A DNA stretch of 39,607 nt from the NCBI GenBank assembly GCA_003173915.1, contig PPGL01000014.1, forward strand, positions 1-39,607. The letters run 5' to 3'. This DNA comes from Candidatus Levyibacteriota bacterium (GTDB lineage Bacteria > Patescibacteria > Microgenomatia > Levybacterales > UBA12049). A model generated the notes under the pieces. That model had not been told where the DNA came from, did not search any database, and saw only the letters and a program-made list of their open reading frames with translations. Below, piece by piece: positions 112-30,318 of the stretch (positions are counted from its first letter, which is position 1; the number at the start of each line of letters is the position of its first letter). Position numbers and translations under genes: made by a program.

Positions 112-1068
112 TTATCTCCTTGCCACGGATCGGAATTTTCTTTCATTGGCACAAAGAAGTACATGTTCTCTTGGTAGTTTTAAATAGCTTTCATAGAACC
201 AATTAAGAAGTCCTGCGGTAACAGATTCTCTATAGAAATTGTAATTATCTGCAACAACTGTTGGAAAACCAAGAAATTTTGCAAAAGCAAAATTGTCTTG
301 TGCAAGCATTGCATATAAATCATTTTCTGCGGCAAACATACCCAAATAACTTCCTCCTTCTCCCCGTCGTCGTCTCATTCCTGTATCTACAGCAAATCTT
401 TTCATTAATGGATCAAGCATATTATCTGTTGCCACTCCAATTGCATATGTGTCAACAAGGTCACGAAACTCTCCTTCTGGACCAAAAAGATTGAGGAAAG
501 CACTTGTCCCTCTATTCATTCCCAGAAGTTCTCCATTACCCTGAATGTCATACCCACCTGTTGCAGGAGCCTCAATGATAAGACAATCAATAGTTGGGTC
601 AGAAATTTTTGACCTGATCATTTCTTCAAAGCGTTGTGTTCCATCTTTATAATCTTGTTTTGTAAAAGATCCAGATTTTCTATCCTTTACAGCTTCTCTC
701 AATGCCATCTCTGCAGTAATAACCGCAATTCTTTCCTCTGGCATGCGCGTTTGGAGTTCTCGCAAAGCATATTTGCGGGTTGTTGATTTTCCTGCACCTA
801 GCGGACCATTAATAATAAGTACTTGTTTTCGGAGAGAAGCATTTTCCGAAATTGTGTCAAGCATTCTTGGAATAGTTAAAAATTGTGAAGTGTGTAATTC
901 GCTATTTGCGTATGGATGTAAATTATTAAATGGTCTTGGTTGTTGTCTTTTTTTTGCAAATCGCATTGCATAAGAGAAACTGTCAGGAGTTATTATTTTG
1001 TCCCTTATTTTCTGAAAAAATGCATCAATTTGTTGTTGCCTATCCCTTGTTGCATGGGATTCTGTCAT
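112..1068 (-). CDS. P-loop NTPase/kinase-like protein of unknown function
   Basis: A 318-residue protein with a clear Walker A motif, GPLGAGKST, at residues 88-96, after a strand-like KQVLII segment. A Walker-B-like strand, DCLIIEAPATGG, follows at about 161-172. No signal peptide or membrane segment is visible, so it should be cytoplasmic. The C-terminal half is not recognisable. Its ATG (1068-1066) overlaps the stop of the upstream histidine kinase as ATGA, which implies translational coupling and a shared role. A second kinase/P-loop pair lies just upstream, and that P-loop protein shares the IxxEAP element. ATP or GTP binding is well supported. Whether it phosphorylates a small molecule, a nucleic acid or a protein cannot be read from sequence. 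Confidence 0.75.
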   Translation of the reverse strand: MTESHATRDRQQQIDAFFQKIRDKIITPDSFSYAMRFAKKRQQPRPFNNLHPYANSELHTSQFLTIPRMLDTISENASLRKQVLIINGPLGAGKSTTRKYALRELQTRMPEERIAVITAEMALREAVKDRKSGSFTKQDYKDGTQRFEEMIRSKISDPTIDCLIIEAPATGGYDIQGNGELLGMNRGTSAFLNLFGPEGEFRDLVDTYAIGVATDNMLDPLMKRFAVDTGMRRRRGEGGSYLGMFAAENDLYAMLAQDNFAFAKFLGFPTVVADNYNFYRESVTAGLLNWFYESYLKLPREHVLLCANERKFRSVARR

Positions 1069-2225
1069 ACTTTTAACCTAGGAAGTGATACAGATATTGT
1101 CGTTCCAAATCCACTCTGAGAAAAAACCGAAATTTTTCCACGAGTTTTCTCAATAATTTCTTTTACTAAAAATAGCCCAAGTCCCATTCCTTCTTTATTA
1201 TTTTTCCTACCCTTATAAAATCCTTTAAAAATATTAGGCATATCTTCTTTACTAATCACTTCTCCGCCGTTATGCACCACAACTACCAATAAGCCATTTT
1301 CTTGTTTGAGAGATACCGTAACTGTAGATTTATATGGTGAAAATTTGCCAGCATTATTAAGAATATTGATAAATGCTTGGAGTAATTTATAATAATCCCC
1401 TTTTACCATATCATTATTTTCCCCTAAGGCATCAACAATTTTGAGTTTGTGTTTTGGAAAAGCAGCAGAAAAAGTAACTGCTGCTTTTTTTATAACAGCT
1501 TTTATAGAAACTCTGTCAACTACAAATTGTAATTTTCCTTTTTTTATCGAACTGACCTGCAAGAGCTCTATGGTAAGCTTGTTAAGCGAGGTAATTTGCG
1601 AATATAATTCATTAACCCATTCAAGATCTGGCATAATTCCTTTGGATATTTTTGATAAAAGAAGTTGTCCATAAACGGTTATTGTTGTTAAGGGAGTACG
1701 GAGTTCGTGAGAAGCAACTGCAATAAACATATCTCTTGCTCGGATTGATTCTTCTGCACGTTTATATTGATCTGCTTTGTAAATTGCCAGACTTGCCATA
1801 GAACCAAAAAGCTTTAAAAGTAAACGGTCTTGTTTGGAAAGATTTTTGGGCGAACGTGAAAGAATGTTGAGTACCCCTATGTTTTTTTGCTTGTATGAGA
1901 GCGGAATAAAAATAATGCTTTTAATTCCTAAAGGATACATATGTGGATGAATATCCTTTTCGCTTTTTACCGGTACTGTAAAGGGTTCTCTAGTTTTAAA
2001 CGCTTTAATTGTTCTTCCATTTTTACTCACTTGAATATTTTCAAGTCCAGGACAGGATGAATAAACTCTTTTCAACTCTCCATTAAATCTAATAAGTATA
2101 GTCCCATAATCTGATTGTAGAAGACGTAGGGCTTCTGCGACAATAATTTGATATGTTTTGTATGGAGACAATTGATTTAAAAATTCTAGTGAGCCTTCAT
2201 AAGTATCCTGTAATTTTAAATTCAT
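1065..2225 (-). CDS. Soluble GAF-domain sensor histidine kinase
   Basis: 386 residues: a GAF-like sensor (about 20-150), a HisKA dimerisation domain with the H-box SHELRTPLT (phospho-accepting His173) and a C-terminal HATPase_c domain. The N-box reads NILNNAGKF (about 287-295) and the G2 box GMGLGLF (346-352). The G1 box is relaxed: HNGGEVI (318-324) replaces the classical DNGxGI, a variant seen in other active kinases. No transmembrane segment is visible, so it should sense a cytoplasmic signal. No response regulator is adjacent. It is a clear paralog of the kinase at 3296-4426; compare RDMFIAVASHELRTPLTTIT with RDLFIAMAAHELRTPLTSIT. A TATAAT lies 10 nt before the ATG, so it may be transcribed separately from the gene upstream. 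Confidence 0.92.
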   Translation of the reverse strand: MNLKLQDTYEGSLEFLNQLSPYKTYQIIVAEALRLLQSDYGTILIRFNGELKRVYSSCPGLENIQVSKNGRTIKAFKTREPFTVPVKSEKDIHPHMYPLGIKSIIFIPLSYKQKNIGVLNILSRSPKNLSKQDRLLLKLFGSMASLAIYKADQYKRAEESIRARDMFIAVASHELRTPLTTITVYGQLLLSKISKGIMPDLEWVNELYSQITSLNKLTIELLQVSSIKKGKLQFVVDRVSIKAVIKKAAVTFSAAFPKHKLKIVDALGENNDMVKGDYYKLLQAFINILNNAGKFSPYKSTVTVSLKQENGLLVVVVHNGGEVISKEDMPNIFKGFYKGRKNNKEGMGLGLFLVKEIIEKTRGKISVFSQSGFGTTISVSLPRLKV

Positions 2226-2235
2226 ATGTAAGGCG

Positions 2236-2244
2236 ATTATAGCA
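2236..2244 (-). promoter_or_regulatory. Extended -10 promoter for the downstream histidine kinase
   Basis: The minus strand reads TGCTATAAT (2244-2236), an extended -10 with a perfect TATAAT and no good -35. Its end is 10 nt from the ATG at 2225, so the leader would be about 3 nt. It lies in the 76-bp gap between the first P-loop gene and the second kinase. Confidence 0.5.
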
Positions 2245-2301
2245 TGTTTTCCATAGCCTAGCGTAGCAAGCAGATTGTCCTTATTGTTTTTTTAAAGAAT
2301 T

Positions 2302-3303
2302 TTACGAAAATTTATTTAGCGATTTCATTAATGATCCGTAATAGTGAACTGGTGTATCCTGCGGAACTATATCATTTGTGCATACTGCAATATCATGTTC
2401 TTTTATACCTAACGACTGGAGTAGCGCTGGTGCACTGTCTTGAAGAAATTGCAACATGATGCCTGTCGAAACAAAAGATTCCGCATCAGTAACTATCATG
2501 TCATACACGGGTTTAACAGCAAAACCGAGTCCTTTTAAATACTGATACAAATCAAAGAGATCTTCTCGTAAATCTGGATAAAAATTTGATCGCAGAGCAT
2601 GCTGCCCTGCACCAGGGATAGTTCCTGTATCACCATGAATTACTGTATTGTTGGCTTGTAATACTTCTTCTCTATCTCTTCTATCATATTCTGTGCGGAT
2701 TAACCGTGTATGCTGAGCAAGCTCCTGACTTGGAATCGGCCACATGAATTTTACGTTATACGTAAGTCCAGCAAATTCACCTCTATGCTGTGCAAGATCT
2801 GCAAGAAGTTCTTTACTCCCTCTGCCTGCTATAAAGGGAGCTTCTAAAATAATATTCTGTCCACTTTCAAGTGATTTACGTACTTCTTCTCCTAATCTTC
2901 TACTTGAAATGCGATGGTCAGCTTGTGTTTGATTACCTGGACCATGTCCTTTTTCAACTTCTCCTTCTTGCTCAACAACTCTTTGTACACTTTCATAGGG
3001 AATATAGGCAAGCATGTCGCGAAGAGGTTTTTCAGGTGTTGCCAAATGAGAAAGTGAACTTGCTGCTCGTGCAAGCTCTTCACCAGCAAGGGTTGTTTTA
3101 CCAGATGTTGGAATTCCCATATTAACAACGATAAATGGGATATCATAATGACGATATTGATACACCAGGTAATTAAGAAACATAATTCCAACTGACATTT
3201 CTCTCTTTGGCTGATATCCACAAATATCTGCTTTTAATCTTTTAAGTAAAGGTGTTTGTGGGAAAAATTGCGGGAATTCGGGCCCAGATCGTATTTCATT
3301 CAT
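2302..3303 (-). CDS. P-loop NTPase/kinase-like protein of unknown function (second copy type)
   Basis: I take the ATG at 3303-3301 as the start (333 residues). It overlaps the upstream kinase stop by 8 bp. An in-frame TTG at 3345 would only read back through the conserved kinase C-terminus. Walker A is GIPTSGKTT at about 63-71, after the strand FIVVNM. A strand IILEAPFIAG (about 151-160) resembles the LIIEAPATGG strand of the P-loop protein at 112-1068, which suggests distant paralogy, although the remaining sequence differs. No signal peptide or membrane segment is visible. The fold could be kinase-like (zeta-toxin or AAA_33-like). Function is unknown, and the repeated coupling to a histidine kinase is the main clue. 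Confidence 0.72.
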   Translation of the reverse strand: MNEIRSGPEFPQFFPQTPLLKRLKADICGYQPKREMSVGIMFLNYLVYQYRHYDIPFIVVNMGIPTSGKTTLAGEELARAASSLSHLATPEKPLRDMLAYIPYESVQRVVEQEGEVEKGHGPGNQTQADHRISSRRLGEEVRKSLESGQNIILEAPFIAGRGSKELLADLAQHRGEFAGLTYNVKFMWPIPSQELAQHTRLIRTEYDRRDREEVLQANNTVIHGDTGTIPGAGQHALRSNFYPDLREDLFDLYQYLKGLGFAVKPVYDMIVTDAESFVSTGIMLQFLQDSAPALLQSLGIKEHDIAVCTNDIVPQDTPVHYYGSLMKSLNKFS

Positions 3304-4426
3304 GGATATAGGGAAGGCAGACAGAAACAGTTGTTCCTTTTCCAATAAAAGAATTCACTGCAATATTTCCATGATGAATTTCAACAATTTTTTTTACCAA
3401 AAATAGCCCAAGTCCTAGTCCTGCATAATCTTTGTCTCCTTTGTAGTATTTTGTGAACATTTTTTTTATATCTTTTTTTTCTATTCCTTTTCCTTCATCC
3501 CGTATAGAAATACAAGCAGTTTTCTCTTTTTTAGCAAGCGAAATGGAAATTTTTGATCCTTTTTGTGAAAATTTGCCGGCATTATTGATAAGATTTATCA
3601 ACATTTGTGTTAACTTATCAAAATCTCCATAGATAGAATCGTTTTTATTCAACGTATCCGTAACAAGAAACTTGTGAGTTGGAAACAATGTTTTTGCTGA
3701 TGCTACGGCCCGATCAATAACCTCTCTCAGATGAATAGGTTTCATAGTAAAAGAAAACTCATCTTCACTTATGTGATTCGTTTGTAGCAACTCATTGACT
3801 AATATATTAAAGCGGGTAATTTCATTAACGAGTAATGTCGCCATTTCTATTGGGATAATTTTTTGAGATAACTTATTTTTTAATACTTGTGCATACACGG
3901 TAATTGATGTCAGTGGTGTTCGCAGTTCGTGGGCTGCCATTGCAATAAATAAGTCTCTAACTTCTACTGCTTTTTTTAGTTCTTTAGAAAGCTGTGCATT
4001 AATAATCGCCGAACTTGCAACTATTCCAAAAAGTTGCAGCATATCTAATTCCTTTTTTGTAAGTTTTTTTTTCTTTTTAGATAACATCGTCAAGACGCCA
4101 ATTGGTTTTTCCTTATGAATAAGTGGAATTAAAATGATTGACGCAATTCCCAAATCTCTTATTTGTTGTTGCGATTGTTCTGCATCTGCAATTATTGGAC
4201 GCTCACTACTAAATGCTTTTTCTGTTAGTCCATTTTTCCTTGGAAAAACTACATGAAGAAGATCGCTATTTGCGTAGACTCGAACAAATTTATTATGATG
4301 TCTTAGAAGGATTGACCCATACTCTGCATTAATTCTGGAAAGAGCTTCGGTAACAAATGATTTATAGATATCTTCTAAATTGTCGGAAAAAATTATTTTA
4401 CTGCTTGAAGTAAGTAGACTACTCAT
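3296..4426 (-). CDS. Soluble GAF-domain sensor histidine kinase
   Basis: 376 residues: GAF-like sensor (about 15-145), HisKA with H-box AHELRTPLT (His166), and HATPase_c with N-box NLINNAGKF (about 278-286), an intact G1 box DEGKGI (310-315) and G2 box GLGLGLF (336-342). No membrane segment is seen and no response regulator is nearby. It is paralogous over its full length to the kinase at 1065-2225 but keeps a more canonical ATP site. The ATG at 4426 is preceded by AAAGGGA, a usable SD, and by a TATAAT at 4464-4459. The P-loop gene follows with an 8-bp overlap, so this is the first gene of a kinase/P-loop operon. It lies 73 bp downstream of the inositol-phosphate synthase, on the same strand. 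Confidence 0.92.
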   Translation of the reverse strand: MSSLLTSSSKIIFSDNLEDIYKSFVTEALSRINAEYGSILLRHHNKFVRVYANSDLLHVVFPRKNGLTEKAFSSERPIIADAEQSQQQIRDLGIASIILIPLIHKEKPIGVLTMLSKKKKKLTKKELDMLQLFGIVASSAIINAQLSKELKKAVEVRDLFIAMAAHELRTPLTSITVYAQVLKNKLSQKIIPIEMATLLVNEITRFNILVNELLQTNHISEDEFSFTMKPIHLREVIDRAVASAKTLFPTHKFLVTDTLNKNDSIYGDFDKLTQMLINLINNAGKFSQKGSKISISLAKKEKTACISIRDEGKGIEKKDIKKMFTKYYKGDKDYAGLGLGLFLVKKIVEIHHGNIAVNSFIGKGTTVSVCLPYIHE

Positions 4427-4499: not shown

Positions 4500-5609
4500 T
4501 TATTTTTCGTTTCGGATAAATTGCTCTACATTCTGTCGAGCCTCACTATCAGTAAATTGTTTTGGAGGAGATTTCATTAAATAACTTGATGGCCCAATAA
4601 GTGGCCCTCCAACTCCACGATCGAGTGCTAGTTTTGCCAAGCGGATTGCATCAATAACTACTCCTGCAGAATTAGGAGAATCCTCAACAGACAAACGTAC
4701 TTCAATATTCATCGGCACATCTCCAAAATGACGAGACTCAATCCGTATAAATGCCAGCTTATTGTCATGGAGCCATGCTACATAATCACTAGGACCAATG
4801 TATACATCTTCATCTTGTATTGCGTCTCCATGAAGTTGGAGTTGTGAAGTAACAGAGCGAGTTTTCGAAATTTTCTTTGATGTGAGTCGTGTCCTTTCAA
4901 GCATATTTTGAAAATCTGTATTTCCTCCAACATTAAGCTGATATGTTTTATCTATCGGCATGCCACGATCCAAAAATAAATTCGCAAGTGTTCGATGCAC
5001 AATCGTTGCCCCAACTTGGGATTTAATATCGTCTCCAATAATTGGAACACCAGCATCGGTAAATTTTTTCGCCCATTCAGGATTAGATGCAATAAAAACA
5101 GGAATGCAGTTAATCATTGCAATTTTTGTTTGAAGACAAATATTTGCCCAATATTCTGTTGCTTTTTGACTACCAACTGGTAAGTAACTAACTAATACTT
5201 CTGCTCCTGATTCTTTCAAGATTTTTACTGGATCTACCGAACCAGCACCACTCGGTTTTACAACTTCTTTTACGTATTCTCCAATTCCATCCATAACTGG
5301 GACGTTTTCTACAATAACTCCTGTTTTTTCTACCTTTGCAAAAACTGTTGTGTTGTTAGGAAACGCATAGATTGCTTCGGAAATATCTTTTCCAACTTTT
5401 GTCTCATTTACATCAAATGCTGCTACAACGTCGATGTCAGAAATTTTATACCCTCCCAAAACTGTATGCATAAGCCCAACAACTTTTGTATCTTTTGTTG
5501 CATCCTTATAGTAGGTTAATCCCTGAACAAGAGATGAGGCGCAATTGCCAATTCCAACAATTGCAATCTTAATGCGTTTTGGATTTGATATAGAGGTATT
5601 TTTATCCAT
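4500..5609 (-). CDS. ino1: Inositol-3-phosphate synthase, actinobacterial/archaeal type
   Basis: 369 residues, normal for the short prokaryotic class. It converts D-glucose-6-phosphate to 1D-myo-inositol-3-phosphate in an NAD-dependent oxidation/aldol/reduction cycle in the cytoplasm. The N-terminus KIAIVGIGNCASSLVQG (about 14-30) is the characteristic Rossmann signature. VLVSYLPVGSQKATEYW, the GDDIKSQVGATI segment and LNVGGNTDF in the middle match the catalytic core, and the end (GGPLIGPSSYLMKSPP) is also typical. It is divergent from a LysR-type regulator with a 72-bp shared region. The neighbouring diacylglycerol kinase, CarS-like and CDP-alcohol transferase genes suggest the product becomes a lipid headgroup. 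The enzyme identity is firm; the downstream use is inferred. Confidence 0.95.
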   Translation of the reverse strand: MDKNTSISNPKRIKIAIVGIGNCASSLVQGLTYYKDATKDTKVVGLMHTVLGGYKISDIDVVAAFDVNETKVGKDISEAIYAFPNNTTVFAKVEKTGVIVENVPVMDGIGEYVKEVVKPSGAGSVDPVKILKESGAEVLVSYLPVGSQKATEYWANICLQTKIAMINCIPVFIASNPEWAKKFTDAGVPIIGDDIKSQVGATIVHRTLANLFLDRGMPIDKTYQLNVGGNTDFQNMLERTRLTSKKISKTRSVTSQLQLHGDAIQDEDVYIGPSDYVAWLHDNKLAFIRIESRHFGDVPMNIEVRLSVEDSPNSAGVVIDAIRLAKLALDRGVGGPLIGPSSYLMKSPPKQFTDSEARQNVEQFIRNEK

Positions 5610-5681
5610 CTTTTCATTAAGGATATCATGAGATATAATAAAAGTAAAATTAATGATTTTTATTTTCTATAAATAATTTTT
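5610..5681. promoter_or_regulatory. Divergent ino1/LysR control region
   Basis: 72 bp of AT-rich DNA. It contains a dyad, ATATC-ATGA-GATAT, at 5623-5636, a plausible LysR-family binding site. On the plus strand there is TATAAT at 5634-5639 and a second -10-like TATAAA at 5668-5673, which ends 8 nt before the LysR ATG. LysR-type regulators commonly control a divergent gene from such a region; that this one controls ino1 is inference. Confidence 0.45.
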
Positions 5682-6539
5682 ATGATAAATGAGTTAAAAA
5701 GATTTATTGTTTGCGTAGATGTTCTTTCTTTTACAAAAGCAGCAGAGAAGTTACACATTACACAACCTGCACTTTCTTTATCTATTCAACGACTTGAAAA
5801 GCAAATAAAAGCAAAACTATTCCAATCAAATCTTCGTCATTTGGTACTTACAAGTGAAGGGAAAATAGTTTATGACATAGGGAAAAAAATAGTTGCTTCT
5901 TGGGAAAGGTTAAATGATGCAACGTCAAGACAAAATTTAATTGGGAAAAAACAGATTACCCTTGGGGCGTTTGATAATGCTGCACTAAAACTTGCTCCTT
6001 TTTTTAACTTGTTTTCAGAAAATAATTCTCTATATCTTGACCTTATTATCGATGATTCAAATTCCTTGAGAAAGCAACTTTTTTTTGGCCTTTTGGATGT
6101 TTGTATTTGCGTTGAGAGTAAACAAAATATACTATCCCAAGAAATTGCAACTCGAATGTATAGCTATGAAGAACCCTTATTCCCCTTCGCAACAGCAAAA
6201 TGGAAACATACATCGCTTCGTAATACCTCATTTATTTTACATCGACAAGGGTCGACAACGCGTGAATATATTGATGAATTTTTTTTAAAAAAACGTATTT
6301 CTCCTCACATTGTTGCAGAGTCAACAAGTACAAGCTTTATGAAAGAACTTGCTCTTCTTGGGCATGGCGTTGTATTTCTTCCTGAGAATATCGTTACAGA
6401 AGAAGTAAAAAATAAAAAACTTTTTGTTGTTAGTCCATCACTTTCAATAAAACGAACTGTTGGTGTATATGTTGCAAAAAGCAGTGATGTAATTTCTCAA
6501 AAGAATTTTTTTCTACAAATGAAGCAATTTCTTAAATAG
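5682..6539 (+). CDS. LysR-family transcriptional regulator
   Basis: 285 residues, normal for the family. The N-terminal winged helix-turn-helix is clear (FTKAAEKLHITQPALSLSI, about 17-35, then RLEKQIKAKLF). A LysR substrate-binding domain follows from about residue 90 and probably binds a small-molecule co-inducer. It reads away from ino1 across a 72-bp region containing a dyad, so ino1 control and autoregulation are the simplest model. The ATG at 5682 has no SD. Its 3' end overlaps the convergent CarS-like gene by 8 bp. The effector cannot be predicted; given the context, an inositol or lipid intermediate is possible. LysR regulators are uncommon in very small genomes, which makes this gene a useful lineage clue. 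Confidence 0.93.
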   Translation: MINELKRFIVCVDVLSFTKAAEKLHITQPALSLSIQRLEKQIKAKLFQSNLRHLVLTSEGKIVYDIGKKIVASWERLNDATSRQNLIGKKQITLGAFDNAALKLAPFFNLFSENNSLYLDLIIDDSNSLRKQLFFGLLDVCICVESKQNILSQEIATRMYSYEEPLFPFATAKWKHTSLRNTSFILHRQGSTTREYIDEFFLKKRISPHIVAESTSTSFMKELALLGHGVVFLPENIVTEEVKNKKLFVVSPSLSIKRTVGVYVAKSSDVISQKNFFLQMKQFLK

Positions 6540-7089
6540 GAGTAGCCTTCAAACTCAAAAGATATCCTAAGTATGAAAATAGAAAATGCATACCAATCCA
6601 TTCGATGGCAATCAAAAAATAAAAAGACCCAGGGAATGGAAGATACATAAAGGAAAAAATTATTCCACCGAGCACATAATCTATCTGATCAAACCCAAGC
6701 CAACTTTTTCCCTCTGGAATACCTATTTGGCGCTTAAAATAACTTTTCACCATATCTCCAAAAAGGGCTCCAAAAGAAAGTAGCAGTCCGAGAATAATAG
6801 GATTTGCATAAAAATATTCGGAAGGAACAAAATAAAATACTTGCGGGAAGGAGTAAACAAGTATCATTTGCAAAATAGCAACAATAGTCCCTGAAATAAG
6901 ACCGACAATAAGTCCTCTCCACGTTTTGTGATCACCAAGTATTCTCTGTCCGCGAACTTTTTTATTGCAATCAATAGGATATGCTAAGTTGGAAAGAACA
7001 GGAAGTTTTGCTGCAAGAATCGGAGTTACATTTGCAGCACCTGCAGGAAGAAAAAACCATAGTCCAAATAGTATCCATTCCATAGTCAT
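6532..7089 (-). CDS. carS: CarS-like CDP-lipid synthase (CDP-archaeol synthase family)
   Basis: 185 residues, an integral membrane protein with about 4-5 hydrophobic segments. Family signatures are GDHKTWRG (52-59), GDMVKSYFKR (111-120) and FDQIDYVLG (133-141). These are the Asp/Lys-rich loops of the CarS/CdsA fold, which transfer CMP from CTP to a phosphatidic-acid-like lipid. Archaeal CarS acts on digeranylgeranylglyceryl phosphate. In a bacterium with a diacylglycerol kinase upstream, the likely substrate is diacyl phosphatidic acid, giving CDP-diacylglycerol. The start overlaps the diacylglycerol kinase stop as ATGA; an alternative ATG lies two codons in. The family call is strong and the substrate is inferred. 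Confidence 0.85.
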   Translation of the reverse strand: MTMEWILFGLWFFLPAGAANVTPILAAKLPVLSNLAYPIDCNKKVRGQRILGDHKTWRGLIVGLISGTIVAILQMILVYSFPQVFYFVPSEYFYANPIILGLLLSFGALFGDMVKSYFKRQIGIPEGKSWLGFDQIDYVLGGIIFSFMYLPFPGSFYFLIAIEWIGMHFLFSYLGYLLSLKATPI

Positions 7090-8000
7090 ACAATAAATGA
7101 TTGATACTCCCGAGGGGTAGTATCTAACGAACTATGCAGAAATGTCAATGCCTTAGGCAAAATTTCAATTCGCACTCCTTCTTGCCTGACAAAGGGATCT
7201 CCATCAATCTGGACAAATGGATCCCCGTCAATTTGAATACTTTTTGCCTTAAAAAATACTTTTCCACCAGCTGAGTAGAGTGGGTGTTTGAATCCCTTAA
7301 AACGAAGATTTGTTAGGTAGGCAAATTTTGTAGAAAAAAGTGTGCAATCAAGCAGTCCATCATTAAGCCTGGCATCTGGCGCGACAACAAAATTTTGTCC
7401 AATAACAGGACAGTTGGCAACAACCAGAGACGATGCAATAACTTTAAAGGTAAACACGCCATCAACAGTAATGGTTAACATTTTTTTTGGATGCGTTACG
7501 ATACTTTTTACTGCCGAGAGAACATACGATCGAAATCCAATATATCTATCATTCATTCTCCCGTGAACAATGCTTGCATCAAACCCAACAGAAATATTAA
7601 ATAGCCCAATTGGTCTATCTGCAAAATTTGTTTGTAAAATATCTATTGAAACCACATCTTTGGGATTTTGTAAAAGAACAAGTGCTTTCTGAATTGTTTC
7701 AACTCCAAGACAATACGAAAGTGCATTTCCAAAACCACAAGGAATAATAGCGATAATTGGACGATTTTTTTTGGGAATTTGGAGAATAGATTCGCAAACA
7801 GAATTAATTGTTCCATCTCCACCAATCACTGCAAGAATATCTGGTTTTTTTTGCAAAATAAGTTTTTTTATACTACCTATTTTTGTAATATCATATGGAT
7901 TACCAAATTGTTTTGAACGATTCGTTGCTCTTTCCCAGTGCACTAAGCTTCTTCCTTCGTTTGCTTTTGGATTAATAAGAAACAGAGTGTTTTTTTTCAT
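7086..8000 (-). CDS. Diacylglycerol/lipid kinase (DgkB/YegS family)
   Basis: 304 residues. The N-terminal DAGK catalytic domain has the nucleotide motif GGDGT at 60-64 and GFGNAL at 89-94, followed by the C-terminal beta-sandwich domain. It phosphorylates diacylglycerol or a related lipid alcohol at the inner face of the membrane, giving phosphatidic acid. It overlaps the PHP gene upstream (ATGA, 7997-8000) and the CarS-like gene downstream (ATGA, 7086-7089), so its product could feed the next enzyme directly. The C-terminal domain has a tandem 8-residue duplication, QIDGDPFV twice (256-271), in the strand that normally carries one IDG(E/D)P element. The kinase call is firm; the exact lipid is not. 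Confidence 0.92.
   Translation of the reverse strand: MKKNTLFLINPKANEGRSLVHWERATNRSKQFGNPYDITKIGSIKKLILQKKPDILAVIGGDGTINSVCESILQIPKKNRPIIAIIPCGFGNALSYCLGVETIQKALVLLQNPKDVVSIDILQTNFADRPIGLFNISVGFDASIVHGRMNDRYIGFRSYVLSAVKSIVTHPKKMLTITVDGVFTFKVIASSLVVANCPVIGQNFVVAPDARLNDGLLDCTLFSTKFAYLTNLRFKGFKHPLYSAGGKVFFKAKSIQIDGDPFVQIDGDPFVRQEGVRIEILPKALTFLHSSLDTTPREYQSFIV
7188..7235 (-). repeat. In-frame 24-bp tandem duplication inside the diacylglycerol kinase gene
   Basis: Two adjacent 24-nt units each encode QIDGDPFV. The amino acids are identical but several third-codon positions differ, so the duplication is not very recent and has been kept under selection. Confidence 0.8.
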
Positions 8001-8650
8001 ACGTTTATTTTTTTTCGCAGTTTATTTACAAATGGACAGAGATACGAAATAAACGGAGCATACGAACAAACCCGTTTCCCAGACAGCAAAAGATTTTTGA
8101 GTGTTTTGGGTGTGGGTTTTTCGCTTACCATTGTATACGCGCTTCCCACTCCCAAAGAACAATGGGCATCACTACTTGATGCGTATGGAATATTTAATAA
8201 AACTTTTGAACTTACAGATTCTTTTTTTCTTCCAAAAGAACGAGCGTTAAATAGTTCAACGATATCAATGTCTTTTGCATTTGCTAAAAATGTAGAACGA
8301 GAGAGAGAATGACGGGAATGTTCAAATGGATGAGGAATATATACAAGACCACCTTGGCGATGAATTTGCTTTGCAGTTTCTTCAAAGGATAAACCTGAAA
8401 CAACAGGTTGTCGTAAAAAAAGCCCAATTACTTCCCCTGCATTTGAATCAATTTCTTCTCCTACAATAATTCTGTCTCCTAATTTTTTTTGTAAAAAAAG
8501 AGCAAAATCAATGGTATTGTGATCTGTAATTGCAACTACATCGAGAGTAGTTTTAAGAAGCTTGGTATATCCACGCTCGGAAATGCCACCGTCATATGAT
8601 AAGATTGAGTGGGTATGTAAATCAAGCTTAATGGAGTGTTGAAGCATCAT
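7997..8650 (-). CDS. PHP-domain metal-dependent phosphoesterase
   Basis: 217 residues from the ATG at 8650 (another ATG at 8647; a TTG at 8665 is less likely). The PHP motifs are present: DLHTHS near the N-terminus (His12, His14), AITDHN, YIPHPFEHSRHS and SSSDAHC. These supply the His/Asp ligands of a multi-metal phosphoesterase site. The family includes histidinol and nucleoside phosphatases and TrpH-like enzymes. It is the first gene of the trio with diacylglycerol kinase and CarS-like synthase, each overlapping the next by 4 bp. A role in removing phosphate from an inositol phosphate or phosphatidylinositol phosphate is an attractive inference but not shown by sequence. Its start codon interlocks with that of the divergent phosphatidyltransferase. 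Confidence 0.85.
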   Translation of the reverse strand: MMLQHSIKLDLHTHSILSYDGGISERGYTKLLKTTLDVVAITDHNTIDFALFLQKKLGDRIIVGEEIDSNAGEVIGLFLRQPVVSGLSFEETAKQIHRQGGLVYIPHPFEHSRHSLSRSTFLANAKDIDIVELFNARSFGRKKESVSSKVLLNIPYASSSDAHCSLGVGSAYTMVSEKPTPKTLKNLLLSGKRVCSYAPFISYLCPFVNKLRKKINV

Positions 8651-9236
8651 GGTAGCAAAAAACAAATTACTAATTCAGCAGGTATTTTTAAGGATTATAC
8701 CATACTTTTCTTGGATTCATCCGAATATCATTACATTATTTTCGCTATTCTTTTCCGCTGCATTTTTTATTTTTCTTGTGTCGCACAATTACTTTTTTGC
8801 ATTTCTTGCACTTCTTGGCAGTACCACAGATGCTCTTGATGGAGCAGTAGCAAGATATTTTCATAAAACATCTCAATTTGGAGCCCTTCTTGACAGCACA
8901 ACTGACCGAATATCAGATGCAGTTATTATTTCCGCATTCTCATTTGCTGGATTTGTTGGATGGCAACTAACACTTCCTCTTATTATTCTCAGTTTTCTTA
9001 TTAGTTATATTCGTGCACGAGGAGAATATCTTTTTCAGATGTCTCTTGAGGGAATTGGTATTATGGAGCGTACAGAAAGGATTATCGGGATAGCAGTTGC
9101 AACAATTGCATTATTTTTTTATACACCATCAACCTACACTTTTTCTTTTGAAACATGGATTTTTTTACTACTTTTAGTATTATCAGTAATAACTGTTATG
9201 CAACGCTTATTATTTTTGTGGAAAAGAGACAAGTAA
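8649..9236 (+). CDS. CDP-alcohol phosphatidyltransferase, probably phosphatidylinositol-phosphate synthase
   Basis: 195 residues with several membrane helices. The complete family motif D-x2-DG-x2-AR-x8-G-x3-D-x3-D is present at residues 61-86 (D61, D64, G65, A68, R69, G78, D82, D86). These residues bind the metal ions and the CDP-lipid. The enzyme displaces CMP from CDP-diacylglycerol with an alcohol. The family also makes phosphatidylglycerophosphate and phosphatidylserine, so the motif alone does not give the substrate. Ino1 and a CDP-lipid synthase within 5 kb make inositol-3-phosphate the best candidate, as for actinobacterial PgsA1 and archaeal archaetidylinositol-phosphate synthase. 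A GGAG at 8633-8636 lies 12 nt upstream, rather far for an SD. Confidence 0.88.
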   Translation: MVAKNKLLIQQVFLRIIPYFSWIHPNIITLFSLFFSAAFFIFLVSHNYFFAFLALLGSTTDALDGAVARYFHKTSQFGALLDSTTDRISDAVIISAFSFAGFVGWQLTLPLIILSFLISYIRARGEYLFQMSLEGIGIMERTERIIGIAVATIALFFYTPSTYTFSFETWIFLLLLVLSVITVMQRLLFLWKRDK

Positions 9237-9241
9237 CACAA

Positions 9242-10048
9242 TTACTGATCTTGTAAATCTTGCAAAACATCTAGTACTCCATCATCAAAGTATGTTCCAG
9301 TTGGCGGACAAAGTACGGGAAATCCATATGCCTTAGGAAGCGGTTGCTTGCCAACATATACAAAGGTCGCTTTCCCACCATCAAGTGCAATTCTTTCGGC
9401 AATTGTTGCGTCAGATGGACTATCTCCAAAAGCAACATATGAATCTGGATGAATTTGACGTTTCTTTAAAAATTCAAGTAATTTTTCCGAAGCAATCCGT
9501 TTATCAATAAACTTATGTTGGATATCCATTGATATTTCCGACTTATCCATATGTACGTCTGGAAATTCTGGAACAATATTTTCCAAAACCCATGCTTCAA
9601 GTTTTTGTAAAATATCTTTTTCTACAGAAACTTTTTCTTTATCTTCTCCTCCAACAATTTCAACAGATACCATTGTTTTTTTATCGGGGTCAAAAAAAAC
9701 TCCATCCATTCCGTTAATTGCTTGCTTAATGATTTCTTGAATTTCTTGAGGAACATGAAATCGAGTATCAATCTGTACATCAGGAACACTATTTGAAAAT
9801 GTCATCGTGACAGCCCCTTTTTCGCAAGAAACAAATAAATTATCGAGCAAATGATTTCCTTGCAAATCTTTTGAAAGAAGTGGAATAATATGTTGTTGTA
9901 CCCAAGCGCTCGATCTACCTGTTGCAATAGCCACATGCCACTCTTTATTCAATTCTTCTGCCATAAAATGAAGAATTTTCGAGTTAGGGTTTTTTGTATC
10001 AGGGTTTGTCAAAACACCATCAATATCAAAAATATAGAGTGTTTCCAT
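9242..10048 (-). CDS. HAD-superfamily (type IIB-like) phosphatase
   Basis: 268 residues. HAD motif I is DIDGVLT at 8-14 (nucleophile Asp8, acid/base Asp10), motif II is around AIATGRS, and motif IV is FGDSPSD (about 208-214). The cap insertion is of the C2/IIB size, as in sucrose- and trehalose-phosphate phosphatases and phosphomannomutase-like enzymes. It is cytoplasmic and acts on a phosphorylated small molecule. It starts 6 bp after the lon stop and is likely co-transcribed with it. It ends 5 bp from the convergent phosphatidyltransferase. A sugar-phosphate or inositol-phosphate substrate is possible, but the sequence does not decide. Confidence 0.85.
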   Translation of the reverse strand: METLYIFDIDGVLTNPDTKNPNSKILHFMAEELNKEWHVAIATGRSSAWVQQHIIPLLSKDLQGNHLLDNLFVSCEKGAVTMTFSNSVPDVQIDTRFHVPQEIQEIIKQAINGMDGVFFDPDKKTMVSVEIVGGEDKEKVSVEKDILQKLEAWVLENIVPEFPDVHMDKSEISMDIQHKFIDKRIASEKLLEFLKKRQIHPDSYVAFGDSPSDATIAERIALDGGKATFVYVGKQPLPKAYGFPVLCPPTGTYFDDGVLDVLQDLQDQ

Positions 10049-10054
10049 GTAGAA

Positions 10055-12454
10055 TTATCCAACTGTCTGCGGGCGTGATGCAGGCATAGGCTCTTGAGCA
10101 TGATGAGGTGGAATATTTTCTGCTCTTTTTACTTTTAACTTTTCAGAAAGAGCAACAGGAAGCACTTCATCCATATGAGTAACAAAAACAAAGTGTAAAT
10201 CATCAAGAACTTCCTTTGGCACATCTTCCAAGTCTTTTTTATTCTCCTTTGGCAAAATAACTGTTTTAATTCCTGCTCTATGCGCGGCAATTACTTTTTC
10301 TTTCACTCCACCAATTTCTAGTGCTCGCCCACGAAGTGTCACTTCTCCTGTCATTGCAACAGTTCGTTTGACTGGTATTTTTGTTAGTGCAGAGACAATT
10401 GCTGTTGTGATTGCAAGTCCTGCAGAAGGTCCATCTTTTGGTACAGCGCCTTCCGGAACATGCACATGAATATCTGTTTTTTGAAATACTTTGTCAGAAA
10501 TTCCCAAATATGGTGCTCGTGAACGAATGTATGACAAAGCAGCTTGTGCAGATTCTTTCATAACATCTCCGAGCTGTCCGGTTAAAATAAGTGATCCTTT
10601 CCCAGACATCAGTGCAACTTCAATAAAAAGAATATCTCCACCAGCTTCGGTCCACGCAAGTCCTGTTGACATACCGATTTCATCTTTTTTCTCAATTAAC
10701 GTTGCGCTAAATTGAATTGGCCCCAGAAGTTTGGCTGCCATTTTGTCATCGACCGCTACTTTTTCTTCCTTTCCTTCAGCAATGAGTTTGGCTACTTTTC
10801 GATAAATTGTTGCAAGTTTTCGCTCAAGATTACGTACGCCTGCTTCTCTTGTGTAATGGGAGATAATAAACTTTAACGCTTCATCGCTAACACTAATTTG
10901 ATCTTCTTTTAAGCCATTAGCTTCGCGCTGTTTTTTGAAAAGGAAGTTTTTGGCAATATGAAACTTTTCATCTTGTGTATACCCTGCAAAATGAATAATT
11001 TCCAATCTATCCCGAAGCGCTGGTGGAATTGTATCAAGAACATTTGCTGTGGTGATAAACATAACATTGGAAAGATCAAAGGGAACTTCCAAATAATGAT
11101 CTGAGAATGAATTGTTTTGTTCGGGGTCAAGCGCTTCAAGAAGTGCACTGGATGGATCGCCTCTAAAATCTGCACCAACTTTGTCGATTTCATCAAGCAT
11201 AAACACTGGATTTCGGGTCCCAGCATCTTTTATTCCTTGAATAATACGTCCTGGAAGAGCACCCACGTAAGTCCTTCTATGACCTCGAATTTCTGCTTCA
11301 TCTCGAATTCCTCCCAAGGAAACTCTGACAAATTTTCGTCCTAATGCTTTTGCAATTGATTTTCCAATAGAAGTTTTTCCAACTCCTGGAGGTCCTGCAA
11401 AACAAAGAATTGGACCTCGCATTTTTCCTGCTAATTTTCTGACAGCAAGATATTCAACAATACGTTCTTTTGCTTTTTTAATTCCGTAATGTTCTTCGTC
11501 TAGAATTTTTTCCGCAATTTTAATATCGACTGTATCTTTACTTTCTTCACTCCATGGAAGAGCAACAAGCCACTCAACATAATTTCTTACATATCCTGCT
11601 TCTGGATTAAATTGATTCATTTGAGAAAGTTTTTTAATTTCTTTTTTCACTTTTTCTTCAACATCTTCGGGCATGCCAGCTTTTTTCATTTTGTCCAAAA
11701 GCTCTTTTACTTCTCCTACTTCATCTTCGTCTCCTTCTTCTCCCATTTTTCCAAGTTCGTTTTTAATTGTTTTTAGTCTTTCTCGAAGCATTGCTTCACG
11801 AGCTCCTTTTTCAAAACGTTCTTGTGTTTTGGATGCAATTTTTCTTTCCAAATCTAACACTTTGATTTCCCTTGCCAAATATTCTGCAACTTTTTCAAGT
11901 CGTTGTTTGACGTTGGTCATTTCAAGAAGTGCTTGTCTTTCTTGCGGCTTTAAATCAAGTACTGAAGCAATAAGATCTGCAAGCTCTGAAGGAGTATTGT
12001 CAGACATAATATTCATGAAAACTAAAAAGTCAGCAGATTTTCCAAGGTTCATTGCCTTTCGAAATTCACCGGTTAAGTGATTGCATAGTGCTTTTACTTC
12101 TGCACTATCCTCTAAAACATCTGGCAATTCCACAACATGAGCGAGTAAGTATGACTGATGATCTTCATAGGAAGTGATTTTTACTCTATTTAATCCACGT
12201 ACTTGCGCATTAATTTCTCCATTTGTTCGGATCATGCGTTCAATGCGAGAAAGTGTTCCTACTTCGTACAAATCATCTATTGAAGGGTCATTGAGTCTAG
12301 GATTTTTTTGCAGTACAAAACAGACAATTCTTTCTCCTTGAAAAGAAGATTCCAGTGCAGCCAAACTCTTTGGTCTTCCAAATGTTAGGACTGAATCTGT
12401 ATTTGGGAAAATGATGCCATCTCGAATTGGAATTATTGGTACAACTTTATCCAT
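10055..12454 (-). CDS. lon: ATP-dependent Lon protease
   Basis: 799 residues, full length. The order is an N-terminal LAN substrate domain (1 to about 200), a helical coiled region with many Lys/Glu, an AAA+ module with Walker A GPPGVGKT (354-361) and Walker B FMLDEIDK, and a C-terminal protease domain. The catalytic dyad is intact: Ser677 in KDGPSAGLAI and Lys720 in GGVKEK, spaced 43 residues as in E. coli Lon. It degrades misfolded and regulatory proteins in the cytoplasm. The upstream region holds a strong promoter and a CIRCE-like inverted repeat, so heat or stress induction through HrcA is plausible. The HAD phosphatase follows 6 bp after the stop. Confidence 0.98.
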   Translation of the reverse strand: MDKVVPIIPIRDGIIFPNTDSVLTFGRPKSLAALESSFQGERIVCFVLQKNPRLNDPSIDDLYEVGTLSRIERMIRTNGEINAQVRGLNRVKITSYEDHQSYLLAHVVELPDVLEDSAEVKALCNHLTGEFRKAMNLGKSADFLVFMNIMSDNTPSELADLIASVLDLKPQERQALLEMTNVKQRLEKVAEYLAREIKVLDLERKIASKTQERFEKGAREAMLRERLKTIKNELGKMGEEGDEDEVGEVKELLDKMKKAGMPEDVEEKVKKEIKKLSQMNQFNPEAGYVRNYVEWLVALPWSEESKDTVDIKIAEKILDEEHYGIKKAKERIVEYLAVRKLAGKMRGPILCFAGPPGVGKTSIGKSIAKALGRKFVRVSLGGIRDEAEIRGHRRTYVGALPGRIIQGIKDAGTRNPVFMLDEIDKVGADFRGDPSSALLEALDPEQNNSFSDHYLEVPFDLSNVMFITTANVLDTIPPALRDRLEIIHFAGYTQDEKFHIAKNFLFKKQREANGLKEDQISVSDEALKFIISHYTREAGVRNLERKLATIYRKVAKLIAEGKEEKVAVDDKMAAKLLGPIQFSATLIEKKDEIGMSTGLAWTEAGGDILFIEVALMSGKGSLILTGQLGDVMKESAQAALSYIRSRAPYLGISDKVFQKTDIHVHVPEGAVPKDGPSAGLAITTAIVSALTKIPVKRTVAMTGEVTLRGRALEIGGVKEKVIAAHRAGIKTVILPKENKKDLEDVPKEVLDDLHFVFVTHMDEVLPVALSEKLKVKRAENIPPHHAQEPMPASRPQTVG

Positions 12455-17403: not shown

Positions 17404-18959
17404 TGAAGATAAAAGCATTTTGTTTCCAACATGACACATGGATTATTGCACTAATAACTTTTTTTGCAAGTGTTTGGAGCGGTGTGTATTTTTATAGTTC
17501 TAATAGTTTGCTTCTTTATGGAGACGCTGAGTCTCATTTAAATATTGCAAAAAGAGTTATTGATAGTCTTACTCCTGGGTTTGCTCAACTTGGAGGAATT
17601 TGGTTACCACTTCCGCATATTTTACTCCTCCCTTTTGTTGCAATTACTCCTTTTTGGCATTCTGGTATTGCGGGAAGCATTGTAGGAGGATTATCTTTTA
17701 TTGTTGCAACAGTGTATCTATACAAAATTGGGTCTCTTCTTTTGCAAAAAAAAATACCGGCACTCATAGCATGCATAGTTTTTATTTGTAATCCTAATAT
17801 TCTCTATATGCAATCTACAGCACTTGGGGAACTACCTCTTATCGCATTTTTTCTTATGTCTGTATATTATTTCTTAAAGTATATAAAACATCCAGAATCC
17901 CTTCCTTCACTCATTTTTTCAGCACTATTTGCACTCTGTGCTTCTTTATGTCGGTATGATGGATGGTTTCTTGTCATTTTTGAAATTATCGGACTTAGTA
18001 TTTTCTTTATTTTTTATAAAAGAAAATGGAGCGAAGGTGAAGGGATGATTGTTGTATTTTCGACATTAGCATTTTTTGGAATTTTCTTGTGGTTTTTGTG
18101 GGATGGTGTGATTTTGCATGATCCACTATATTTTACAAATAGTCCATTTTCGGCAAAATCACAACAAGAAGGATGGCTTGCTCGAGGAGAACTCATCACG
18201 TATAAAAACATCTGGTTATCAGTAGTCTATTATGCAGATACTATTGCGCGAAATACTGGAATTTTCTTAACAGCATGCATGCTTGTCGGACTTGTATTAT
18301 TTTTATTTGATAGAAAACAACCTCTTCGTTTGTTTACAATTCTCTTATTGGGATTTCCTTTTGTTTTTTATGTTTCAACATTATACCTTGGGCAATCTAT
18401 TATCCTTTTACCAGATCTTACCCCAACAACATTTATGTGGCATTTATTTAATGTCCGTTATGGTGTTATTATGCTACCATTTGTTGCTATCTTGATAGGA
18501 TTTCTATTATCTAAGTCAAACAAATTTTTGCGCATTTTGCTTATTGCAATTATTGTTATTCAAACAATTTCTTTTGCAACCGGAACCGAACCAACAATTA
18601 CACTTGAGGATGGAAGATCTGGTTTGTCAGCAATGAAACAACCTGATGCACAACAATGGATGGCAAGACATTATGATAAAGGAACAGTATTGCTGGATGA
18701 TTTTGCTCGTACAATTAGCATTATTAAAAGCAATATTCCTATACAAAATGTTATTTATGTCGGAAATCATCCATATTGGGAAAACGCATTAAAAAAACCA
18801 CAAAATTATGTAACATGGGTTGTTGTGCAAAAAGACGACGCTGTCTGGAAAGAAATTTATGCGCAACCTTCCAAACGAGATAACTTGTATAAATATTATC
18901 AAAAAGTTTATACATCTCCAGACATTCTTATTTTTAAAAGAAATACATTACCAAGTTAG
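17403..18959 (+). CDS. GT-C-type membrane glycosyltransferase (GT39/ArnT-like)
   Basis: 518 residues with 11-13 hydrophobic segments and a soluble C-terminal tail. The first extracellular loop has GDAESHLNIAKRV (Asp41, Glu43), the acidic pair expected of GT-C enzymes that use polyprenyl-phosphate sugars, and WLPLPHILLLP follows. Such enzymes add a sugar to an acceptor on the outer membrane face. The start codon overlaps the upstream stop (TGATG, 17401-17405), so the two are coupled. The donor is likely made by domain 1 of the upstream protein, and the acceptor could be a surface protein such as those encoded downstream. That link is inferred from position only. Confidence 0.82.
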   Translation: MKIKAFCFQHDTWIIALITFFASVWSGVYFYSSNSLLLYGDAESHLNIAKRVIDSLTPGFAQLGGIWLPLPHILLLPFVAITPFWHSGIAGSIVGGLSFIVATVYLYKIGSLLLQKKIPALIACIVFICNPNILYMQSTALGELPLIAFFLMSVYYFLKYIKHPESLPSLIFSALFALCASLCRYDGWFLVIFEIIGLSIFFIFYKRKWSEGEGMIVVFSTLAFFGIFLWFLWDGVILHDPLYFTNSPFSAKSQQEGWLARGELITYKNIWLSVVYYADTIARNTGIFLTACMLVGLVLFLFDRKQPLRLFTILLLGFPFVFYVSTLYLGQSIILLPDLTPTTFMWHLFNVRYGVIMLPFVAILIGFLLSKSNKFLRILLIAIIVIQTISFATGTEPTITLEDGRSGLSAMKQPDAQQWMARHYDKGTVLLDDFARTISIIKSNIPIQNVIYVGNHPYWENALKKPQNYVTWVVVQKDDAVWKEIYAQPSKRDNLYKYYQKVYTSPDILIFKRNTLPS

Positions 18960-19691: not shown

Positions 19692-19738
19692 TGACCGTCA
19701 ATGAGACGGACACCATGAAAGGAGGTGAAAGAGAATGA
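19692..19738 (+). promoter_or_regulatory. Structured leader with full-length Shine-Dalgarno and 7-codon upstream ORF
   Basis: A hairpin CCGTC-AATGA-GACGG (19695-19709), with an extra TG/CA pair outside one mismatch, precedes TGAAAGGAGGTGA (19716-19728). Twelve bases of this could pair with the usual 16S rRNA 3' end. An ATG at 19715 opens MKGGERE and stops at TGA 19736-19738, overlapping the real ATG at 19735 as ATGA. The rest of 19601-19734 is AT-rich without a clear promoter. Confidence 0.6.
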
Positions 19739-20982: not shown

Positions 20983-20990
20983 CCCTTTGT

Positions 20991-21032
20991 TGAGAGACAA
21001 GGGAGCTAGGCTAGCTTAGCTCCCTCCTCTCA
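20991..21032 (+). terminator. Strong two-part hairpin between the two repeat-protein genes
   Basis: GGGAGCTA (21001-21008) pairs with TAGCTCCC (21017-21024) around an 8-nt loop. An outer TGAGAG (20991-20996) pairs with CTCTCA (21027-21032). There is no T-run after it, so it is not a classical terminator. It could attenuate transcription, mark an RNA processing site or stabilise the upstream message. It fills most of the 71-bp gap. Confidence 0.55.
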
Positions 21033-21053
21033 GAAAGATGAAAAGTAAAACAT

Positions 21054-30270: not shown

Positions 30271-30318
30271 TCTTTCTTGCACTCTCCTCCTAGCTATCGT
30301 ATTATTAACCAACTAATT

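Follow-up and report, generated by a model that had tools for sequence, protein, structure and literature searches.

The pathway for phosphatidylinositol (PI) in Actinobacteria uses CdsA besides Ino1 and PgsA1. It is a two-step route through phosphatidylinositol phosphate (PIP), as described in the excerpts available of two studies (PMC6506517, PMC4634129). In bacteria, the phosphatase converting PIP to PI was termed unidentified in 2015, 2019 and 2022 (PMC4634129, PMC6506517, PMC9385802, each in excerpt); for Bacteroides it was identified as a PgpA-like protein (PMC9246714, in excerpt). Genes BT_1522-1526 of Bacteroides thetaiotaomicron cluster an inositol-phosphate synthase, a PIP synthase and this phosphatase, BT_1525, according to the same excerpt. 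The archaeal route to archaetidylinositol employs CarS and an archaetidylinositol-phosphate synthase. CarS and CdsA have been credited with maintaining the lipid divide (PMC9385802), and genomes of the CPR were reported to be without complete lipid pathways (PMC7242380), in the parts of these texts at hand.

The locus studied here has features of all three systems. As in Actinobacteria, Ino1 fits TIGR03450 best, phosphate-binding residues are shared between the PIP synthases and a two-step route through PIP is proposed from the sequence; the locus differs in its CarS-like enzyme, in the lipid kinase and PHP-family genes of the cluster, and in the clade of its CDP-alcohol phosphotransferase (CDP-AP). 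With B. thetaiotaomicron the locus shares the clustering, whereas its phosphatase candidate is a PHP protein instead of a PgpA-like one, the BT_1523-type model gave only 40 bits on its transferase, and it has a CarS-like gene, while no CarS is named for the Bacteroides cluster in the excerpt consulted (PMC9246714). Both families of the archaeal route are present, and the transferase falls in a group with two Thermococcales proteins (support 88/88), but the CarS lies in a bacterial clade and little of the archaeal backbone pathway was detected in the phylum sample.

Gene arrangement

The window, the whole analysed stretch of 39,607 nucleotides, contains at positions 4500-9236 a group of genes that probably enables a tiny and presumably host-dependent bacterium to make PI (Table 1). 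All named genes in this region and the adjoining HAD-IIB gene are complete open reading frames with computed profile support. The first-pass annotation, which had placed Ino1, kinase, CarS-like enzyme, CDP-AP, PHP and HAD proteins in one region, was thereby confirmed; the LysR gene between ino1 and carS was absent from its account. The strand order implies several transcription units, not a single operon, and the stop and start codons of the carS, kinase and PHP genes overlap by 4 bases. The grouping looks to be more than chance, because sub-sets of it recur in other Patescibacteria. For comparison 192 genomes were searched, sampled evenly in a single draw across the phylum of genome G001, which was the chosen centre; their completeness was not given.

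Table 1 Genes of the putative PI locus and the adjoining hydrolase gene
Gene product	Positions	Strand	Profile matches and remarks
Ino1, myo-inositol-phosphate synthase	4500-5609	-	PF01658 118 bits, cut-off 27
LysR-type regulator	5682-6539	+	PF00126 and PF03466
CarS-like CTP transferase	6532-7089	-	PF01864 108 bits, cut-off 22
DAGK/YegS-type lipid kinase	7086-8000	-	PF00781 58 bits, PF19279 52.7 bits
PHP-family phosphoesterase, listed ORF (TTG start)	7997-8665	-	PHP_C 21.4 bits, cut-off 21.3
PHP-family phosphoesterase, likely extent	7997-8650	-	likely ATG start at 8650-8648
CDP-alcohol phosphotransferase (CDP-AP)	8649-9236	+	PF01066 61 bits
HAD-IIB hydrolase	9242-10048	-	PF08282 43.4 bits; beyond 4500-9236, cited in the first-pass annotation

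CDP-alcohol phosphotransferase

The transferase carries the complete signature DxxDGxxAR...GxxxDxxxD (D61, D64, G65, A68, R69, G78, D82, D86), and its top PDB match is a solved PIP synthase, the CDP-diacylglycerol--inositol 3-phosphatidyltransferase 6h53. In the Mt enzyme R94, Y133, R137, R155 and R195 were tied to the binding of inositol phosphate (PMC6506517, PMC4634129, in excerpt). Pairwise alignment to 6h53 and a multiple alignment place R87, Y120, R124, R144 and R186 of the window protein at these positions, hence every pocket residue is kept in the computed comparison; E. coli PgsA carries K, A, W, Q and Y there and the pocket is missing. R144 and R186 occurred together in none of 24 lower-scoring Patescibacteria CDP-APs, eight of which were gapped at R144; a lower-scoring match occurred in 64 genomes, of which 24 are represented here, and E. 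coli PgsA itself reached 44 bits with the search model, A1. The profile scores amounted to 154.9 bits for the archaetidylinositol-phosphate synthase model NF040950 (cut-off 180), 94.2 bits for the PIP synthase model NF045883 (cut-off 170) and 37 bits for the pgsA model. Since the curated cut-offs, operational thresholds of named equivalogs, were not reached, neither NCBIfam name was assigned to the protein. In a tree of 62 rows it was found among PIP and archaetidylinositol-phosphate synthases and E. coli PgsA in another group; support for this split was only 73/91, and of the 24 CDP-APs of other Patescibacteria that lack the pocket, 12 fell on the window's side. Pocket residues, profiles and tree support a predicted enzyme of the PIP/archaetidylinositol-phosphate synthase type. 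The proposal of the first-pass annotation, a CDP-AP with full catalytic motif joining an inositol phosphate, thus appears sound; its tree check revealed no grouping with glycerol-phosphate enzymes, and a reading as PgsA was rejected on the pocket residues together with the tree.

Six of the 192 genomes (G001 and five others) had a CDP-AP that model A1 scored at 84 bits or more, the next match being at 63 bits, and in all six the computed distance to a carS gene was 23-703 bases, taken between profile matches and not gene ends. A PHP gene lay in between in four of them, a YqeG/PGP_phosphatase-like HAD gene stood beside the synthase in place of PHP in the ino1-carS-CDP-AP cassette of G034, and neither was found in the neighbourhood in G001. 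Two further genomes, G002 and G003, had the transferase away from carS and no PHP gene was seen next to it. The cassette transferases of G034, G084, G193 and G140 form a clade of their own, with R144 and R186 kept, K at R124 and without R141 and E143. Conservation of R141, E143 and R144 in the loci L001-L080, the best 80 of 548, is by construction, because the search pattern included these residues; of the 192 genomes, only the centre G001 was selected through this pattern.

CarS-like enzyme

CDP-archaeol synthase 5guf was the only PDB match of the CarS-like protein at E <= 0.001. The active-site block GDMVKSYFKRQ...FDQID aligns to archaeal and bacterial CarS (GDxxxSxxKR...DQxD) and the protein is a member of PF01864; with PRK04032 it scored 130.7, below the cut-off of 148, and it stands outside the archaeal CDP-archaeol synthases. 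The CarS tree separated 12 archaeal from 41 other rows (100/98) with the window protein on the bacterial side, and a recent transfer from archaea was rejected on this tree. A 17-row clade (98/94) takes in the CarS of all 8 genomes with a PIP synthase that the tree holds and of none of its 24 other Patescibacteria genomes (Fisher p 1.7e-6 for 6 versus 24 genomes, relatedness ignored); the tree covers 30 of the 33 genomes with CarS, as G085, G010 and G016 gave no locus.

These 33 of 192 Patescibacteria genomes with a PF01864 gene, and the bacterial clade, contradict at the sequence level the earlier view that CarS-like enzymes are mainly archaeal. A control search with PF01864 also matched 3 bacterial control genomes, so weak matches need not be CarS. 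A clear CdsA (at least 73 bits) was present in 6 of 192 genomes, none among the 33 with CarS; about 1 shared genome would be expected, so this lack of overlap is not significant. With more members than CdsA in the sample of a bacterial phylum, a CarS clade would offer a test of the origin of CarS/CdsA specificity. The archaeal CarS that has been characterised favours its archaeal substrate and failed to rescue a cdsA mutant of E. coli (PMC9385802, in excerpt); acceptance of phosphatidic acid by the window enzyme is therefore not given.

Inositol-phosphate synthase, regulator and lipid kinase

Ino1 matched TIGR03450 over its full length (1-355/355) with 502 bits, below the cut-off of 638, and the PF01658 domain together with this match identifies the family. 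Its identity to Saccharibacteria genes was 63% in G003 and 48% in G002. The 192 genomes yielded three strong and one marginal match (25% identity), and Ino1 was absent from the searches of G001, G056, G193 and G140, genomes of unstated completeness that carry the transferase. A divergent LysR gene next to ino1 was also present in G002 and G003, i.e., in two of five ino1 relatives with flanks read; in G084, among the other three, the locus is at a contig end. The LysR-type protein probably regulates ino1, judging from this arrangement.

The lipid kinase has a GGDGT motif with DAGK_cat and YegS_C domains and belongs to the DAGK/YegS family; its score with TIGR00147 was 83.9 bits (cut-off 118.65). 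In G003 a DAGK_cat gene (30.8 bits) adjoins ino1-lysR, and in three of the six transferase genomes (G001, G084, G140) a DAGK match was not found.

PHP-family phosphoesterase

The PHP protein scored 48 bits with NF038032 (cut-off 80) and did not match the Pfam PHP domain PF02811, for which its four cassette relatives gave 28.7, 28.0 and 24.6 bits and no match (cut-off 26.4). The stretches HTH, TDH, GEE/GQE, PHP and SDAH are kept across the five sequences. H17, H19, D48, H49, E71, H112, D166 and H168 are invariant in all five and are presumably the metal ligands. The structural model displays a PHP fold at pLDDT 88.8 with PHP phosphoesterases as closest PDB matches. The His/Asp/Glu set and these predicted fold matches place the protein in the PHP phosphoesterase superfamily. 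High scores of the cassette proteins with model A2 are by construction, as its input sequences were the window PHP and those of the four cassettes; the window PHP alone as query matched 28 of 30 loci from the A2 search, four of them at 159-174 bits and the next at 97.

New here is the recurrence of this PHP subfamily: it was found in 4 of 192 genomes, always between carS and a PIP-type synthase, which makes it the best candidate for the PIP phosphatase. The first-pass annotation had offered either PHP or HAD for this step; the former gained from its recurrence, and HAD-IIB is less favoured, as it was never the best match of any ORF in the relatives' neighbourhoods compared. A PHP-family enzyme for the step from PIP to PI is not recorded in the excerpts of the literature examined, and none was among the matches listed in a search on PHP or other PIP phosphatases. 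As a recurring cassette partner, PHP is a second concrete candidate for this phosphatase. Between carS and CDP-AP of other Patescibacteria lies also a gene of about 141 amino acids; it was rejected as phosphatase, since five translations inspected by eye look like ribosomal protein L11, which we take it to be.

Proposed pathway and alternatives

We consider it likely that the locus is a bacterial PI module and that it belongs to a member of the CPR (Patescibacteria), probably on the Microgenomates/Levybacteria side. Ino1 would convert glucose-6-phosphate to inositol-3-phosphate, a supply that may be under LysR control, and the YegS/DAGK-like kinase would form phosphatidic acid from diacylglycerol. 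The bacterial CarS-like enzyme, replacing CdsA, would form CDP-diacylglycerol from phosphatidic acid and CTP, and CDP-AP would transfer it to inositol-3-phosphate, yielding PIP, from which the PHP phosphoesterase would take off the 3-phosphate to leave PI. We infer that the lipid is acyl rather than archaeal, which substrates the kinase, CarS and PHP protein use, and that LysR exerts the control. More tentative is the specific claim that a branch of the Patescibacteria makes PI with a bacterial CarS acting on fatty-acid phosphatidic acid and a PHP phosphatase completing the route.

PIP or PI may also be made with HAD-IIB or an unlinked enzyme as phosphatase, the PHP protein then serving, e.g., phosphate removal from nucleotides or RNA. 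RNase AM and the PHP domains of DNA polymerases are among the structures nearest in fold to the PHP model, the HAD-IIB gene adjoins the transferase gene, and PHP is missing from the G001 cassette and from the transferase neighbourhoods of G002 and G003. The constant position of the subfamily speaks against this, as do the PGP_phosphatase-like HAD beside the transferase of G034 instead of PHP and a basic C-terminal tail in all five PHP sequences (over the 15 final residues the net charge averaged 4.6, versus 2.1 for a set of 24 other PHPs; p 0.008, a post hoc comparison). We regard this division of roles as rather unlikely. PHP as PIP phosphatase remains the preferred reading.

An archaeal-type ether lipid, with CarS forming CDP-archaeol and the transferase archaetidylinositol phosphate, is improbable. 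The CarS family, the top transferase model and the grouping with Thermococcales would suit it, and the route is not foreign to the phylum: one Parcubacteria genome was reported with GGGP and DGGGP synthase homologues (PMC7852524, in excerpt). The bacterial position of the CarS and the DAGK-type kinase within the set argue against it, and an acyl lipid is favoured because the GGGPS/PcrB family was matched just 10 times across the 192 genomes, each time weakly, with two matches over the cut-off (25.7 bits; 30.3 with neighbours); the match in the cassette genome G056 was under it at 23 bits. Still less probable is a soluble or other inositol product of Ino1 and transferase, e.g., a di-inositol-phosphate compatible solute: the bifunctional di-inositol-phosphate synthase model matched weakly (37 bits, cut-off 580) and Archaeoglobus proteins are among the PDB matches of the transferase, but an inositol-phosphate cytidylyltransferase was not detected among the 9 window proteins scanned, and the location of the transferase near carS in six of eight genomes with both located points to a lipid donor.

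Lipid genes in Patescibacteria

A glycosyltransferase partner, as for glycosylated PI, was rejected: none occurred among 25 scanned neighbour proteins of the relatives, 6 of them without a Pfam match (30 proteins were given, five being the HAD and PHPs, and the glycosyltransferase-like genes of the window at 15127-18959 were left out). A search for MutS in relatives, run without a positive control, matched in none of 9 genomes. Literature searches on PI in Patescibacteria and on Saccharibacteria and host lipids had nothing relevant among the matches listed. For the biology of the CPR, the PI module argues that some lineages tailor lipid headgroups, even with a backbone taken from others. Acyltransferases were scarce among the sampled genomes, in line with our guess that diacylglycerol is taken from a host: PlsY was found in 9 and a PlsC-like protein in 33 of 192 genomes, and PlsY, PlsC-like protein and clear CdsA were all present in two, G076 and G152.

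Results and discussion

The sequence evidence obtained here, namely the gene families, the residues of the inositol-phosphate pocket, the order of the genes and the trees, supports well the proposal of the first-pass annotation that the window (39.6 kb, G+C 35 %) holds a near-complete phosphatidylinositol (PI) pathway; from this evidence we infer the enzyme substrates and the order of pathway steps. Linked by 4-base end-to-start overlaps, the genes for CarS, DAGK and a PHP-family phosphoesterase (PHP) look like a single transcription unit. Both in the window and in genome G056, the divergent genes for PHP and the CDP-alcohol phosphotransferase (CDP-AP) share a head-to-head overlap of their ATG start codons, so that the promoter of either gene would fall within the other. 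The closest CarS relative (P0002, 65 % identity) is encoded on a 6,359-base contig, and a Lon relative with 93 % identity, among 120 matches listed, also on a 6,359-base contig; the equal size of the two contigs, the sole basis here, suggests a conserved CarS-to-Lon order in a sister organism. The best of the listed Lon matches that carried a name were labelled 'Patescibacteria group' (83 % identity) and Levybacteria (78 %), and one at 77 % was labelled Actinobacteria; this places the source in the Patescibacteria, probably close to Microgenomates/Levybacteria.

Features of the window and of loci in relatives
Feature	Position	Strand	Remark
PI gene cluster	4500-9236		order as in the next six rows
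Ino1		-	
LysR		+	
CarS-like		-	
DAGK/YegS-like		-	
PHP		-	
CDP-AP	8649-9236	+	
HAD-IIB		-	after CDP-AP
Lon		-	after HAD-IIB
PHP/CDP-AP start codon overlap	8648-8651		window
PHP/CDP-AP start codon overlap	9571-9574		G056, locus L153
PIG-L (GlcNAc-PI de-N-acetylase family)	7778-8506		G140, locus L155; adjoins carS
Bacteriorhodopsin-like gene	10681-11415		G034, locus L147; flanks cassette
Two-gene unit, apparently repeated	112-4426		window
Sensor histidine kinase-like	1065-2225, 3296-4426		by eye
P-loop protein, paired with the kinase-like gene	112-1068, 2302-3345		weak cobW and AAA_33 matches
Two adjoining large proteins	19735-23090		by eye; secreted-looking, Asn/Thr/Gly repeat-rich
MutS- and MutL-like genes	27541-31986		by eye

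The transferase is a predicted inositol-phosphate enzyme. It scored 155 bits against the NCBIfam model of archaetidylinositol-phosphate synthase, 94 against phosphatidylinositol phosphate (PIP) synthase and 37 against pgsA, each below the respective cut-off, and its top PDB match was the PIP synthase 6h53. Two studies describe R155 and R195 as phosphate-binding pair, the retention of R94 in inositol-phosphate users, and experiments on Y133 and R137 in PIP synthase and a relative (PMC6506517, PMC4634129); residue numbers in the 6h53 alignment match those of the papers (D68, D71, D89, D93). In a 62-row alignment the five counterparts (R144, R186, R87, Y120 and R124) were complete in the window CDP-AP and its clade, with the exception of G001 (K for R124). 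The corresponding residues of E. coli PgsA are Q, Y, K, A and W, respectively. R144 and R186 occurred together in none of the 24 lower-scoring Patescibacteria CDP-APs of this alignment, the R144 column being gapped in eight. In the tree, the window protein fell into a clade of 11 rows (branch supports 95/94), all those of known origin being Patescibacteria, with two Thermococcales proteins as neighbours (88/88). E. coli PgsA grouped apart with 12 of the 24 lower-scoring CDP-APs (weak split, 73/91); the remaining 12 were on the window's side in separate branches.

Recurrence was studied in 192 genomes drawn evenly from the phylum, with G001, which was known beforehand, as the centre of the draw. 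The CDP-AP profile model A1 had matches in 70 genomes, but reached at least 84 bits in only six (next best 63). In all six, carS was located 23-703 bases from the CDP-AP gene. PHP occupied this interval in four (G056, G084, G193, G140; 44-46 % identity to the window PHP), G034 had ino1, carS and CDP-AP consecutively with a HAD gene of YqeG / PGP_phosphatase type on the far side, and G001 the carS and CDP-AP pair alone. In the Saccharibacteria G002 and G003, ino1 lies beside a divergent LysR gene, in G003 with a DAGK_cat gene next; no CarS was detected within the CDP-AP flanks of these two genomes, both of which have carS elsewhere. Thus, two parts, ino1-lysR-DAGK and carS-PHP-CDP-AP, come together in the window. 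Ino1 is rare (4 of 192 genomes, one marginal).

The conserved PHP partner is a point beyond the first-pass annotation, and we consider PHP a somewhat favoured candidate for the PIP phosphatase. Used alone as query, the window PHP found four relatives at 159-174 bits (next 97), precisely the PHP genes of the cassettes, where neighbouring profile matches were spaced by -2 to 41 bases. Model A2, built from these five proteins, matched in 39 of 192 genomes, four more of which also had CarS, each time on separate contigs (G016, G098, G180, G010). All five PHPs share an identical putative metal-binding residue set and, in a post hoc comparison, a basic C-terminal tail. The AlphaFold model (pLDDT 88.8) matched PHP phosphoesterases, with uncharacterised TM0559 on top (E 7.5e-11); RNase AM was also high, so the fold does not settle the substrate. 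The strongest contextual argument is a single case: the sole ino1-carS-CDP-AP cassette devoid of PHP has the PGP_phosphatase-like HAD beside CDP-AP.

The emphasis of the first-pass annotation on an archaeal-type CarS was misplaced, as the protein belongs to a bacterial lineage present in one sixth of the phylum sample (PF01864, 33 of 192 genomes). Twelve archaeal rows split from 41 others in the CarS tree (100/98). The window CarS fell into a 17-row clade (98/94) with Ktedonobacter protein P0079, several unnamed proteins and the CarS of all eight genomes that have a PIP-type synthase (G001, G002, G003, G034, G056, G084, G140 and G193). None of the 24 further Patescibacteria genomes represented in the tree fell into this clade. 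PF01148 matched in 39 genomes: in 31 at CarS itself (three with a second weak match), in six at a clear CdsA (73-139 bits) and in two weakly (25.5 and 31.4 bits). CarS and clear CdsA co-occurred in none of the 192 genomes, which is no proof of replacement, since only about one overlap was expected by chance (33 and 6 of 192). In 12 of the 33 CarS genomes, a lower-scoring CDP-AP was encoded no more than 2.5 kb from carS, and the pocket was absent in all seven of these CDP-APs that were aligned; a wider role of bacterial CarS in CDP-lipid synthesis thus seems likely. At five loci of other Patescibacteria (L093, L098, L099, L101, L105), CarS is followed by ribosomal protein L11 (by eye) and a pocket-less CDP-AP.

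Phosphatidic acid is the likely CarS substrate, since PcrB/GGGPS had only 10 weak matches in the 192 genomes. Against it, characterised archaeal CarS does not substitute for CdsA in E. coli (PMC9385802), and GGGP and DGGGP synthase homologues are reported from one Parcubacteria genome (PMC7852524). Acyltransferases were scarce: PlsY occurred in 9 and PlsC-like proteins in 33 of 192 genomes. DAGK_cat was present in 90, and the six cassette genomes had no PlsY match, weak PlsC-like matches in two (G140 36 bits, G193 28 bits) and DAGK_cat in three (G034, G056, G193). A survey of 675 CPR genomes found a complete lipid pathway in none, a near-complete one in some Nealsonbacteria, and proposed lipid uptake from others (PMC7242380). 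With this scarcity and the survey, a route beginning at diacylglycerol fits, with lipids of a host or other cells as putative source.

The MutS-like protein of the window had no match in nine of nine related genomes in a search that had no positive control. One in-frame TAA per matched frame was noticed in ino1 of G046 (L083) and in CDP-AP of G016 (L116) and G035 (L106).
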